DNA of 34,045 nt, from contig JAIQGC010000025.1 in the NCBI GenBank assembly GCA_020072805.1, positions 1-34,045 on the forward strand. The letters are read 5' to 3'. Source of the DNA: Terriglobia bacterium. Lineage in GTDB: Bacteria; Acidobacteriota; Terriglobia; Acidiferrales; UBA7541. The translations under genes and the position numbers were made by a program. The notes beneath the pieces are model-generated. The model had not been told where the DNA came from. It saw only the letters and a program-made list of their open reading frames with translations, and did no database searches. Positions 1 to 5,595 of this stretch are shown piece by piece; positions within the stretch are counted from its first letter, which is position 1; each line of letters begins with the position of its first letter.

Positions 1-1
1 A

Positions 2-697
2 CTGTTTCACACGGACGCTGTCCAGGCTGTTGGGAAGATTCCGGTGGACGTGCAGAAGGACAATATCGACCTGCTGGCCATTTCCGCGCACAAACTGTAC
101 GGGCCCAAAGGAGTGGGGGCGCTCTACGTGCGGCGGCGCAACCCGCGGGTGCAGCTCTCGGCCATCATTGACGGCGGCGGGCACGAGCGGGGAATGCGCT
201 CGGGAACGCTGAACGTGCCGGGAATCGTGGGGCTGGGCAAGGCCTGCGAGATCTGCAAGAACGAAATGGCGCAAGAGAGCGAGCGGATGCTGAAGCTGCG
301 CGAGCGGCTGCTGAGCGGGCTGATGAGCAAGCTGGACGTGCTCTACATCAACGGCTCGATGGAGCACCGCCTGCCCAACAATTTGAACATCAGCTTCGCC
401 TACGTGGAAGGCGAATCGCTGCTGATGGGAATTAACGACGTGGCGGTCTCGAGCGGTTCGGCGTGCACTTCGGCGACGCTGGAGCCCAGCTACGTGCTCA
501 AGGCCCTGGGCGTGGGAGACGATCTGGCGCACACGTCGATCCGTTTCGGGCTGGGCCGGTTTAACACGGAAGAAGAGATCGATTACGTCACCAACCGTCT
601 GGTGGAAGTGGTTTCCAAGCTGCGGGATCTTTCCCCGCTCTACGAGATGGCCAAGGACGGGATCGACATCAGCAAGGTGAAATGGCAAACGGCATGA
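2..697 (+). CDS. iscS: Cysteine desulfurase IscS (5' end outside window)
   Basis: PLP-dependent enzyme that takes sulfur from L-cysteine and passes it as a persulfide to the scaffold IscU. The reading frame is open from base 2, so the N-terminal part lies upstream. Visible family signatures are [15 protein letters not shown] (PLP-contacting Asp/Gln), [10 protein letters not shown] with the Schiff-base lysine, [12 protein letters not shown], and the mobile catalytic loop [14 protein letters not shown] with the active-site cysteine. The C-terminus is complete and ends in VKWQTA. It is the first visible gene of an isc cluster. Family assignment is secure from motifs and context (iscU and iscA follow). 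Confidence 0.96.
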
Positions 698-738
698 TTC
701 CGCAGGACGAAGTGGAAAAGGAAAGAAAAGGAAAGACT

Positions 739-1041
739 ATGGCACAGGATGGAACAATTCGAATTCAGCGCTCACTGGGTGGCAGCGCCACCCCGTTTCA
801 GGTGAGCTTTTCGCCGTACGATACCGAAGCAGAAACCGGCGGCGTGCGGCGTTTTCGCGAGCTGCAGGAGGTTCGTGATTTTCTGCGGATTCTGGGGATC
901 GGAGCGGAGTTCATCCGCGAGGCGCTGCGGCAACTGGCCGCGGGCCGCTCGGCTTCGCTTTCGGACGTGCGGCTGACGGACGCAATGGTGAAGCGCGCGG
1001 GCTTTCTGGAGACAGGCGACCTGGCAAGGAGCGTAAGCTAA
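739..1041 (+). CDS. Small unknown protein between iscS and iscU
   Basis: I do not recognise a named family. The predicted protein is 100 residues, starting MAQDGTIRIQRSLGG, with a central helical stretch (RRFRELQEVRDFLRILGIG) and no cysteine, histidine or tryptophan. It therefore cannot carry a cluster through Cys/His ligands and is not an IscR-type regulator or a scaffold. ATG 739 is chosen because AAAGGAAAG sits just upstream; an in-frame ATG at 682 would overlap the end of iscS. The stop codon overlaps the iscU start (TAATG), so translation of the two is probably coupled. Position between the sulfur donor and the scaffold suggests an accessory role in Fe-S assembly, which is inference only. 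Confidence 0.8.
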   Translation: MAQDGTIRIQRSLGGSATPFQVSFSPYDTEAETGGVRRFRELQEVRDFLRILGIGAEFIREALRQLAAGRSASLSDVRLTDAMVKRAGFLETGDLARSVS

Positions 1042-1457
1042 TGGCATACAGCGAAAAGGTTGTGGACCATTTCAATAACCCGCGCAACGTGGGGAGCATG
1101 CCCAAGGAAGACCCCAACGTGGGCACGGGCCTGGTGGGCGCGCCGGAATGCGGCGACGTCATGAAGCTGCAGATGAAGATCAACCCGGAGACGCAGGTGA
1201 TCGAAGAGGCCAAGTTCAAGACCTTCGGGTGCGGCTCGGCGATCGCCAGTTCATCGCTGGCGACGGAGTGGGTGAAGGGCAAGACGGTGGAAGAAGCCCT
1301 GGCGATCAAGAACACGGAGATCGTCAAGGAGCTGGCGCTGCCGCCGGTGAAGATTCACTGCTCGGTGCTGGCCGAAGACGCCATCAAATCGGCGATCAAC
1401 GACTGGAAGAAAAAGAAGGGCATCGAAGTGCGCCCCGAGGATATGCCGTCGCACTAA
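1041..1457 (+). CDS. iscU: Iron-sulfur cluster scaffold IscU
   Basis: Scaffold on which nascent 2Fe-2S clusters are built from IscS sulfur before chaperone-assisted transfer. The 138-residue protein has the three conserved cysteines (Cys37 in APECGDV, Cys64 in FGCGSA, Cys107 in HCSVLAEDA), Asp39 and His106. The LPPVK peptide at residues 100-104 is the established HscA recognition motif, which fits the hscA gene downstream. Length is normal for a prokaryotic IscU. The start ATG overlaps the preceding stop. The C-terminal extension (KKKKGIEVRPEDMPSH) is slightly long and charged. Confidence 0.97.
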   Translation: MAYSEKVVDHFNNPRNVGSMPKEDPNVGTGLVGAPECGDVMKLQMKINPETQVIEEAKFKTFGCGSAIASSSLATEWVKGKTVEEALAIKNTEIVKELALPPVKIHCSVLAEDAIKSAINDWKKKKGIEVRPEDMPSH

Positions 1458-1474
1458 GAGGCGGGGAGACGGGC

Positions 1475-1855
1475 ATGGAAACAAACGTCGAGAAGAATAC
1501 AGGTACGGCCGCGCCGAACGCCGCGGTGATTCACCTGACCGAGCGGGCCGCGGAACGGATTCGCGCGTTGCTGGCTAAGGAAGGCGTGGCGGCGGAGACG
1601 GGCGGTTTGCGCGTGGGCGTGCAGGGCGGCGGGTGCTCGGGGCTTTCCTACGCGATGAAGCTGGATACCCAGGCGCGCGACCGCGACAAGGTCTTCGAGG
1701 AGCATGGCGCGCGGATCTTCGTGGATCCCAAGAGCCTGCTGTATCTGGGCGGGACCACGCTGGAATACGAAGTGACGGTGATGAAGCAGGGATTCGTGTT
1801 CCAGAATCCCAACGCGGCGCGCAGTTGCGGCTGCGGCAGTTCGTTCACGGCCTAG
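1475..1855 (+). CDS. iscA: A-type Fe-S carrier protein IscA
   Basis: A-type carrier that receives or delivers Fe-S clusters (HesB/IscA family). The protein is 126 residues, with the three conserved cysteines at Cys54 (GGGCSGLSY), Cys118 and Cys120 (SCGCGSSF). A 15-20 residue polar N-terminal extension precedes the family start (IHLTERAAERI). ATG 1475 follows GGGGAGACGGGC, a usable ribosome-binding site, 17 bases after the iscU stop. An in-frame upstream extension lies over iscU and is rejected. An intrinsic-terminator-like hairpin about 90 bases downstream suggests iscS-orf-iscU-iscA is one transcription unit. Confidence 0.94.
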   Translation: METNVEKNTGTAAPNAAVIHLTERAAERIRALLAKEGVAAETGGLRVGVQGGGCSGLSYAMKLDTQARDRDKVFEEHGARIFVDPKSLLYLGGTTLEYEVTVMKQGFVFQNPNAARSCGCGSSFTA

Positions 1856-1947
1856 GCGCGGCAGATTTTTTCGCATTCATGCGGAGAAAAAGTTTCCGCG
1901 TGGGCTGGATGGAGCAGCGGGGCTTGCGCCGGACACTTGCGTTTGAC

Positions 1948-1990
1948 ACGTGGCTGGCAGCCGCACCCGCCAGCCGCGTTTTTTTATTTT
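1948..1990 (+). terminator. Rho-independent terminator or attenuator between iscA and hscB
   Basis: GGCTGGC (1952-1958) pairs perfectly with GCCAGCC (1969-1975). Outward pairs A1948-T1979, C1949-G1978, G1950-C1977 and a T1951-G1976 wobble extend the stem to 11 bp around a 10-base loop. The run TTTTTTTATTTT (1979-1990) follows directly. It lies after iscA and abuts the first plausible hscB start codon. It could end the iscSUA transcript or work as an attenuator that tunes hscBA-fdx expression. No clear separate hscB promoter was found. Confidence 0.75.
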
Positions 1991-2728
1991 ATGAATGAGG
2001 ATACGGGCGCGTTTCCCTGCGCCGTGAAAATTCAGATGGCCGAGCCGCACATTTCGAACAATCCACCGCTGGTCTGCTGGAGCTGCCACGAGCGCAGCCT
2101 GGGGACGCATTTTTGTTCGAGCTGCGGGAAGCTGGTGCAGCTGGCTCCCAATATCGATTACTTCGCGATGTTAGAAATGCCCCGGAAGCTGTGGGTGGAG
2201 GCGGATGCGCTCGAGCGCAAATTTCTGCAACTGAGCTGGAAGCTGCATCCGGACAAGTACGCCAGCGCCACCGAGCAGGAGCGCGAGCTTTCGCTGCGGC
2301 ACAGTTCGGAGTTGAATGACGCCTATCGTACGTTGCGCGACCCCATTGCCCGCGTCGAGTATTTGCTCTCGCTCGAAGGGATGCGCAAAGAGGGGGAGAC
2401 GAAGCAGCAGGCTCCCGCCGAACTGCTGGAAGAGGTTTTCGAATTGAATGAGTCGCTGGACGAACTGCGCGAGGCGCGGGCGGCGGGCGGGGATCTGGCC
2501 GGGCTGAAGGCGCGGCTGCAAGACGCGGAAAAAAGTTTTCAGGGCAAGCTGGGCGCTGTGGACGCGGCGCTGCAATCCGGCGCGCGGGAATGGGATGCGG
2601 CGCTGGATGCACCGGGCGGCGCGCCGGACGTGCGGAAGAAATTGCTGGAGCGGATGAACGAGTTGCTGAACCGGCGCGCGTATTTGCGCAATCTCACGCT
2701 GAACGTGGCCAAGGAGCTGGCGGCGTGA
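1991..2728 (+). CDS. hscB: Co-chaperone HscB with N-terminal zinc ribbon
   Basis: J-domain co-chaperone that brings IscU to HscA and stimulates its ATPase. The J-domain signature HPDK ([11 protein letters not shown]) is followed by the helix containing [19 protein letters not shown] and a C-terminal helical domain for IscU binding. Ahead of the J-domain is CWSC-9 residues-CSSC, a probable zinc ribbon like that of eukaryotic HSC20 and unlike E. coli HscB. The start is uncertain: ATG 1991 (245 residues) directly follows the terminator T-run, ATG 2036 (230 residues) is an alternative, and neither has a clear ribosome-binding site. A TTG at 1937 would lie upstream of the hairpin stem. Confidence 0.92.
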
Positions 2729-2756
2729 GGCGCGGCGGGGCACGGGCTTAGGAATC

Positions 2757-4595
<1,839 letters not shown>

Positions 4596-4625
4596 AGGCG
4601 GAAGTGCAGGGAGCGAGGAAGAATC

Positions 4626-5036
4626 ATGGGCGGAAGCAATCCATATATTGACGAAGTCAAATACAAGACGGCGACGAAGAAATACAAGGTGACGTTCTTG
4701 CCGAGCGGGAAGACCTTCGAGGTGGACCCGGAAAAATTTCCCTACGGCCACAACGGACTGCCGGGAAGCATCCTGGACATCAGCGAAGGTTTCAAGATGG
4801 GGCTGGACCACGCCTGTGGCGGCGTATGCGCCTGCTCGACCTGCCACGTGATGGTGCAGCAGGGCATCGAGACGTGCAACGAGGCGACGGACGCGGAGCT
4901 GGATCAGCTCGACGAAGCGCCGGGGATTACGCCGAAGTCGCGCCTGGGCTGCCAGTGCGTGCCCGACGGGACGACGGACATCGTGGTGGAGATTCCGGAG
5001 TGGAATAAGAATTACGCGAAGGAATTGGATCATTGA
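4626..5036 (+). CDS. fdx: Adrenodoxin-type 2Fe-2S ferredoxin of the isc cluster
   Basis: Electron donor in Fe-S cluster assembly. The protein is 136 residues with the vertebrate-type motif HACGGVCACSTCHV (ligands Cys64, Cys70, Cys73; Cys68 is an additional cysteine) and the fourth ligand in SRLGCQC (Cys109). LDQLDEA and the acidic surface match Isc-type ferredoxins. An N-terminal extension of about 20 lysine-rich residues (YIDEVKYKTATKKYK) is longer than in E. coli Fdx. AGGAAGAATC precedes ATG 4626. The gene lies 30 bases after hscA and is probably co-transcribed with it. Confidence 0.95.
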   Translation: MGGSNPYIDEVKYKTATKKYKVTFLPSGKTFEVDPEKFPYGHNGLPGSILDISEGFKMGLDHACGGVCACSTCHVMVQQGIETCNEATDAELDQLDEAPGITPKSRLGCQCVPDGTTDIVVEIPEWNKNYAKELDH

Positions 5037-5042
5037 GAAAGG

Positions 5043-5063
5043 CAGTTCACAGTTAACAGTTAA
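5043..5063 (+). repeat. Heptanucleotide tandem repeat A, unit CAGTTAA, 3 copies
   Basis: Three head-to-tail 7-base units in the fdx-iscX gap. The first copy differs at one base (CAGTTCA) and the other two are exact. It begins six bases after the fdx stop codon. Confidence 0.75.
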
Positions 5064-5118
5064 GAGCAAACCCTGCAAGCGAGCGTAGCTTTTTGGTGAC
5101 CGACGGGCGCGGGGGTTT

Positions 5119-5153
5119 CACGAGTCACCAGTCACGAATCACGAGTCACGATT
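5119..5153 (+). repeat. Heptanucleotide tandem repeat B, unit CACGAGT, 5 copies
   Basis: Five contiguous 7-base units. Copies 1 and 4 are exact; copies 2, 3 and 5 each differ by one base (CACCAGT, CACGAAT, CACGATT). It ends 19 bases before the iscX start and leads into a short T-run. Confidence 0.85.
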
Positions 5154-5172
5154 TTTTCTTCATGGAGCACGG

Positions 5173-5391
5173 ATGCTGCCGACATTGAATTGGGATGACG
5201 TGGAAGGGCTGGCGATTGCGCTGGCGGACAAATTTCCGGAGATTGATCCGCTGACGGTGCGTTTTACGGATTTACACAAGTGGGTGTGCGAGATGGAGGG
5301 GTTTGTAGGCGACCCCAAGGCGTCGAACGAGGGGAAGCTCGAGGCGGTGCAGATGGCCTGGCATGAGGAGTTTACCGATCGCAAGGGGTAG
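5173..5391 (+). CDS. iscX: Fe-S assembly protein IscX
   Basis: Small acidic protein that binds IscS and modulates Fe-S assembly, proposed as an iron-dependent regulator or iron donor. The 72-residue sequence starts LNWDDVEGLAIALADKFP and has the conserved acidic/aromatic pattern, including RFTDLHKWV and a helical end ending MAWHEEF. ATG 5173 has GGAG seven bases upstream. It is separated from fdx by 136 bases containing two tandem-repeat blocks, so it may be expressed more weakly than, or separately from, the upstream genes. Confidence 0.94.
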   Translation: MLPTLNWDDVEGLAIALADKFPEIDPLTVRFTDLHKWVCEMEGFVGDPKASNEGKLEAVQMAWHEEFTDRKG

Positions 5392-5406
5392 CGGGGCGAG
5401 TGAGGC

Positions 5407-5441
5407 GAAACTGGAAACGCGAAATCCGAAACTCGAAATTC
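5407..5441 (+). repeat. Heptanucleotide tandem repeat C, unit GAAACTC, 5 copies
   Basis: Five contiguous 7-base units just 3' of iscX. Copy 4 matches the consensus, copies 1, 2 and 5 differ by one base, and copy 3 by two. The unit sequence is unrelated to repeats A and B. Confidence 0.85.
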
Positions 5442-5520: not shown

Positions 5521-5595
5521 GGCGCTATGGTGCAACGGTTAGCACGCGGCCCTTTCAAGGCTGAAATACGGGTTCGATTCCCGTTAGCGCTACCA
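5521..5595 (+). tRNA. tRNA-Glu, anticodon UUC, encoded CCA
   Basis: A full cloverleaf can be folded: acceptor GGCGCTA/TAGCGCT, D stem GTGC/GCAC, anticodon stem CGGCC/GGCTG with loop CTTTCAA (anticodon TTC at 5554-5556), T stem ACGGG/CCCGT with loop TTCGATT, and an encoded CCA at the 3' end. The four-base variable loop (AAAT) is normal for tRNA-Glu. The terminal acceptor pair is G-U as I align it, which is unusual; the rest of the acceptor stem is perfect. Confidence 0.95.

Follow-up and report, generated by a model that had tools for sequence, protein, structure and literature searches.

Heptamer arrays around iscX in a Terriglobia genome are copies of three recurrent families

Cyanobacterial STRR sequences are tandem heptamers that occur as several families per genome, with unit sequences other than those of the three families (A, B and C) described below. 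REP sequences consist of a single palindromic unit with a conserved tetranucleotide. In the sections of the papers drawn on here, REP and BIME elements are described as dispersed, extragenic and alternating in orientation (PMC2817692), and heptamer arrays are reported outside the cyanobacteria from Xanthomonas, Beggiatoaceae, Bacteroidetes and Geobacter (PMC4692102, PMC4679880, PMC2700814). The GGGANTN heptameric repeats of Xanthomonas are characterized there as G-rich and quadruplex-capable, and three heptanucleotides are given for Calothrix (PMC4692102). The TAACTGA direct repeats of marine Beggiatoaceae lie between genes in small sets, each with two to six copies; in the sections cited, most such sets point towards a start codon a short way downstream, related heptamers are rarely repeated, and one set is inverted (PMC4679880). 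For Geobacter metallireducens, the cited sections report scattered elements, each with four or five heptanucleotides in tandem, including GGGACCG in 49 places and MTYCTGA, with a proposed role as regulatory elements or binding sites (PMC2700814). Heptamers have so far been put down to polymerase slippage or, for those of Xanthomonas, to quadruplexes. A preliminary description of the present locus knew of no described equivalent in its group, and our literature search, of limited coverage, likewise turned up no paper joining heptamers and Acidobacteria.

Heptamer arrays around iscX and across the genome

The window, by which we mean the whole 34,045-nucleotide stretch of DNA analysed, carries three period-7 arrays around iscX, at 5043-5063, 5119-5153 and 5407-5441. 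The preliminary description had located all three, and direct reading of the sequence confirms them. Tandem Repeats Finder also assigns period 7 to each. The units are CAGTTCA CAGTTAA CAGTTAA in the first array, CACGAGT CACCAGT CACGAAT CACGAGT CACGATT in the second, and GAAACTG GAAACGC GAAATCC GAAACTC GAAATTC in the third. Our custom score, applied to the window at 10 or above, recovers the first two at period 7 (periods 8 and 10 give 2 and 1 arrays, respectively) and misses the third, which is too decayed. The three arrays are local copies of three recurrent heptamer families, which we call A (CACNART), B (CGAAAYY) and C (AACTGNN). The relevant features of the window are as follows.

4626..5036, + strand: probable ISC-type 2Fe-2S ferredoxin gene, upstream of the arrays (best match TIGR02007, 89.5 bits, below the cut-off of 132.1)
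5043..5061, - strand: family C array, reading AACTG TT AACTG TG AACTG on the - strand; left-arm type
5062..5118, no strand assigned: spacer from the family C left arm to the family A right arm
5119..5149, + strand: family A array, CAC GAGT CAC CAGT CAC GAAT CAC GAGT CAC; five CACs in fixed register; right-arm type
5173..5391, + strand: iscX, between the arrays (TIGR03412, 93.3 bits, cut-off 40.4)
5406..5441, + strand: family B array, CGAAACT GGAAACG CGAAATC CGAAACT CGAAATT C; left-arm type
5521..5595, + strand: tRNA-Glu (TTC), downstream

The close pair in the window thus joins family C with family A, and these two arms are not complementary to one another. No right arm was recognised in the window for the family B array at 5406..5441; the relative G009 has one called. 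A search of the arrays against RNA families returned no known family, the tRNA being the sole match. Positions 1-5391 hold an isc cluster comprising iscS (truncated by the window start), an unnamed short gene, iscU, an iscA-type gene, hscB, hscA, the ferredoxin gene and iscX.

The window corresponds to contig C104 in a 157-contig genome of 4.0 Mb (G000). We sampled 1.74 Mb, or 44%, of this genome, mostly as stretches from contigs with prior family A or B matches, so array densities are upper estimates. Genes were called with a custom codon-score script, an unpublished and crude gene finder. At a score of 12 or above, predicted genes contain 5 period-7 arrays and the DNA outside them 31; third-order Markov resampling of the intergenic DNA, repeated 30 times, gave a mean of 0.03 and a maximum of 1. 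Since the sample amounts to 44% of the genome, its bias is unable to close the gap to 0.03. Other periods are scarce outside genes: none at periods 4 and 5, three at 6, four at 8, one each at 9, 10, 11 and 15, four at 12 and two at 13. Period 14, a harmonic of 7, gives 23, and at periods 6, 9, 12 and 15 most arrays fall within genes. The preliminary description staked its case on seven-base arrays being commoner in intergenic DNA than other periods or shuffled sequence, and this holds, with 31 arrays compared to 0-4 at other periods (14 aside) and 0.03 in the resamples.

With up to three mismatches, family A has 127 matches in G000 against 5 for the reversed pattern, an unclean control that matches three-unit heptamer arrays in G036, G123 and G188. 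The reversed pattern (unit CACTRAN) is itself frequent in these three genomes and marks a further heptamer family in other members of the class or phylum. We also searched 40 relatives, 24 of them of the same genus. Counting G000, the strict three-CAC family A pattern occurs in 19 of these 41 genomes, family B in 13 and family C in 14. The strict A pattern is present in 7 of 199 genomes drawn from the phylum. Beyond the phylum, a scan with the exact five-CAC pattern, which favours regular arrays, found at least 112 stretches at no fewer than 80 loci; among the matches listed are Bacteroidota, Verrucomicrobiota, Cyanobacteria, Lysobacteraceae and others. One run, in Planctomycetota FR_29 (L258, from position 501), repeats CAC every seven bases 70 times, with CAGC or CAGT as its first 14 units, and exceeds any run seen in the window's genome. 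Because each array at iscX is a copy of a dispersed family, the preliminary description was wrong to call the three unrelated and independent, and the genome-wide recurrence of families A, B and C rules out three independent accidents at iscX. A common core for all three families, RACTSNN, was drawn post hoc from the families and from mixed arrays such as L114, and is not claimed.

Register, unit order and inverted arms

We defined a family A chain as CAC every seven bases with the linking motif, and found 46 such chains in the 1.74 Mb. Families B and C gave 13 and 11 chains, too few for tests of register and neighbouring units. Over 147 family A units, the N position is G in 92, C in 27, A in 26 and T in 2, and the R position is G in 116, A in 28 and another base in 3. 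The T is conserved in 135 of the 147, while the CAC and first A are preconditions of the count. Chains with at least four CACs begin and finish at CAC, an additional NART preceding the first CAC in 3 of 38 and following the last in 3 of 38. Among the matches listed from other phyla, five-CAC arrays of CACNART have the extra NART before in 40 of 79 and after in 32 of 79. Chains of at least three CACs number 4 with three, 13 with four, 25 with five, 3 with six and 1 with eight. A tolerant count finds 26 with two CACs (19.5 expected by chance), 6 with three, 10 with four, 22 with five and 3 with six, and so peaks at five. Strict CAC(NARTCAC)n counts are flat, at 17 for two CACs (3.4 expected), 14 for three, 12 for four and 14 for five, which means that the peak rests on tolerance of changed units.

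Neighbouring units in family A are less alike than chance predicts. Identical neighbours make up 13 of 123 in G000, compared to 25.7 expected from permutation within arrays (0 of 5000 permutations as low) and 24.1 from a position-specific permutation (P 0.0008). At a lag of two, 25 of 77 units are identical against 16.1 expected. In the relatives, identical neighbours account for 11 of 119 against 35.4 expected; this figure covers 14 genomes, the other four of the 18 relatives with a match being left out as their matches were unlisted, and relatedness between species is uncorrected in the statistics. CACNART arrays in other phyla are mostly uniform, with identical neighbours in 351 of 548 among the matches listed against 337 by permutation; the like-for-like figure for G000, from the exact five-CAC pattern, is 4 of 52. 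The register and unit mix of family A are not what simple copying slips would give.

Arrays were called in three genomes at thresholds under which a single resample of intergenic DNA was free of hits, yielding 112 in G000, 26 in G007 and 20 in G009. After 2 of these 158 arrays with short flanks were left out, 41 of the remaining 156 had an arm of opposite direction on the loop side and 1 had such an arm on the outer side, both arms of a pair being counted. Arms of the same direction lie on the loop side in 8 cases and on the outer side in 3, and 115 of the 156 arrays are without a recognised partner. Neighbouring pairs no more than 120 bp apart are arranged as left arm then right arm in 22 of 25 cases (10 of 13 in G000, 6 of 6 in G007 and 6 of 6 in G009), a count in which some sites appear twice, once in each of two species, and in which the family B arm convention was fixed after the pairs were seen. 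The three pairs that do not fit, all in G000, are B-/C+ twice and C-/C- once. Inverted pairs made up of a single family, 19 in total, all have the same polarity within that family (5 pairs in A, 10 in B and 4 in C). Elsewhere in the class, C pairs keep the same polarity in G038 (C20) and G039 (C7, C369 and C545); a B pair in G030 (C183) agrees, and one in G039 (C549) has the opposite polarity.

The spacer between inverted arms is usually 15-50 bases long, with 8 to 100 seen, and hairpins are possible in most same-family pairs. Across the 19 same-family pairs, pair-specific complementarity found no support: own arms pair no better than arms exchanged between elements, with energies of -34.8 for own and -39.2 kcal/mol for swapped arms in family A (n=5), -22.3 and -25.2 in family B (n=10), and -26.9 and -23.5 in family C (n=4). 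Base-by-base hairpin pairing is thus not under visible selection. For single arrays, a second hairpin on the loop side was sought and not found, the energies lying near those of shuffled flanks on both sides.

Placement and counterparts in relatives

Predicted genes contain 5 of the 46 family A chains, 6 of the 13 family B chains and 0 of the 11 family C chains. Two of the 41 extragenic family A chains lack a left neighbour and were left out; the remaining 39, with both neighbours known, lie between codirectional genes in 24 cases, convergent genes in 11 and divergent genes in 4. The intergenic bases counted are 52% codirectional, 16% convergent and 32% divergent (58%, 16% and 26% by region). 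Relative to codirectional genes there is no strand bias, with same and opposite orientations in 13 and 11 cases for family A and 4 and 4 for family C. The median distance to the downstream start is 101.5 for A and 118.5 for C, and that to the upstream stop is 54.5 and 56. Upstream of the family A arrays at L012, L039, L065, L082 and L096, a longer common stretch of the type GACGCAAACGGCG...GTGCTTGG can be made out by eye, and these arrays may lie inside a larger dispersed repeat.

We fetched 30 iscX loci, including the window's own, and 8 of them have a period-7 array (score 9 or above) close to the gene. In G007 the order C then A is preserved ahead of iscX, with A one unit shorter than in the window, and an A-type run lies behind the gene where the window has B. 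G009 has 14 perfect B units behind iscX, and its stretch matching 5062..5118 appears by eye to hold a degenerate C-type right arm. At L074 (4136), an A array in G000 with a weak A-type left arm (0.57, slightly below the cut) corresponds to a C pair in G007. One site can therefore carry different families in different relatives. The right arm at L018 (10129) is kept in G009 over 31 bases with three substitutions. The L106 array aligns without gaps over 31 bases to that of the Terriglobia MAG SRVP_21, with seven substitutions, one of which turns the first CAC into CGC in G000; the genes beside this array that are common to SRVP_21 are 68-79% identical. This orthologous array by itself makes class Terriglobia of the Acidobacteriota the likely source of the window. 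For the arrays at L012 (3964) and L045 (3385), no counterpart could be recognised in G009. The region L018 9555-11465 (contig C64 of G000) packs four family A arrays and one B array into 2 kb. Three of these five arrays fall within long predicted genes, and G009 has counterpart arrays in three of the four regions aligned.

G007 and G009 contain perfect CGAAACT runs, from 7 to about 17 units long and often confined to one arm, which show that slippage also acts in the relatives. Two such runs in G009 (C4:78880-78996 and C7:105880-105978) have about 17 and 14 perfect CGAAACT units in one arm only, the opposite arm being short and degenerate.

Explanations and comparison with known systems

We tentatively propose that the arrays could well be dispersed "heptad elements", runs of roughly three to six boxes of seven bases each, with some runs paired as inverted arms round a spacer, mostly intergenic and nearer the preceding stop than the next start, with family A under selection. 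Slippage, as seven-base duplication, would supply new boxes. Selection would then keep family A in a single register and at no more than about five boxes, and neighbouring boxes would be kept unlike one another, so that run length stays stable. The likeliest role would be that of a putative multi-box recognition or hairpin element, independent of orientation and acting, much as REP and BIME elements do, on DNA or at the ends of transcripts, either as a DNA-binding array or as an RNA hairpin. It is the set register, the unlike neighbours and the one-sided inverted partner together that lead us to take family A as held by selection.

The main rival is neutral slippage, in which seven-base duplications arise and decay without function, and heterogeneous runs are the survivors after identical neighbours have slipped away. 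The long perfect runs in G007 and G009, often single-arm, are consistent with it, as are the one-unit difference between the window and G007, the flat strict length counts and the mostly uniform CACNART arrays among the matches listed from other phyla. A survey cited in PMC4679880, moreover, has heptamers as the commonest long simple repeat in the majority of its genomes. Against this, neither a fixed register nor a fixed side for the inverted partner would be expected from free slippage, and decay at random would not by itself bring neighbour identity to less than chance, although survivorship could. Slippage alone is thus insufficient, given the set register, unlike neighbours and one-sided inverted partner, and we consider the neutral account somewhat unlikely. 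The preliminary description had offered slippage or a templating process as the mechanism; slippage-like expansion is real in the relatives but is not the sole cause for family A, with its fixed register and its deficit of identical neighbours. Templated writing, by a reverse transcriptase or similar that adds heptamers at breaks, would yield a fixed register and one polarity per family, and fits the occurrence of different families at the same site in different species. A template would also give identical neighbours, whereas those of family A are less alike than chance, and this process seems highly improbable.

Small mobile or copied repeats of REP, MITE or BIME type, with the arrays as arms of an element spread by a transposase, would account for the dispersal, the inverted arms of fixed polarity, the scarcity between divergent genes and the few flanks that by eye have further sequence in common (L012, L039, L065, L082 and L096). 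Yet most of the 46 flanks are, by eye, without longer common sequence. The REP-associated tyrosine transposase (PF01797) is present in 36 of the 41 genomes, with 3 copies in G000, and its numbers do not track family A: G017 has 10 strict A matches and zero PF01797, and G016 and G018 have 10 and 12 PF01797 and zero family A matches. An origin of this kind is quite unlikely in our estimation. A broader idea, which we regard as rather doubtful, is that layout counts and not letters. Seven-base pitch, box number and inverted arms would then be the working property of one general bacterial class, in which unlike families swap at a site, unlike neighbours hold length, and a putative nucleic-acid-binding partner with a seven-base pitch reads the arrays.

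A deficit of identical neighbours is a mark that can help to tell selection from slippage, and one that is testable across many genomes. A case with the Xanthomonas layout that is not G-rich also suggests that quadruplexes are not the common cause.

Among REP and BIME elements, the likeness to the arrays lies in dispersed extragenic elements in inverted arrangement; the arms here, unlike theirs, are heptamer runs and not one palindrome. Dispersed short heptanucleotide elements are common to this genome and to Geobacter as far as the cited sections describe it, and the unit sequences differ. Family C (AACTGNN) takes in the TAACTGA of marine Beggiatoaceae, and both form short intergenic sets in the sections cited (PMC4679880). 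Unlike the TAACTGA sets, the arrays here are without forward placement upstream of start codons and without strand bias, have many unit variants, and commonly form inverted pairs. The closest published kind is the Xanthomonas GGGANTN repeat, whose main layout features, within the cited sections, are common to the arrays here (PMC4692102). These are a seven-base unit with fixed and free positions, dispersal, a mostly extragenic location here, and close inverted pairs on opposite strands. The differences are that CACNART, CGAAAYY and AACTGNN are without a G tract of three (the rare CACGGGT at L044 has one, and a quadruplex needs four), that three families occur in one genome, and that family A neighbours are unlike beyond chance. 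Given the same main layout, the arrays described here are a variant of the Xanthomonas GGGANTN kind.
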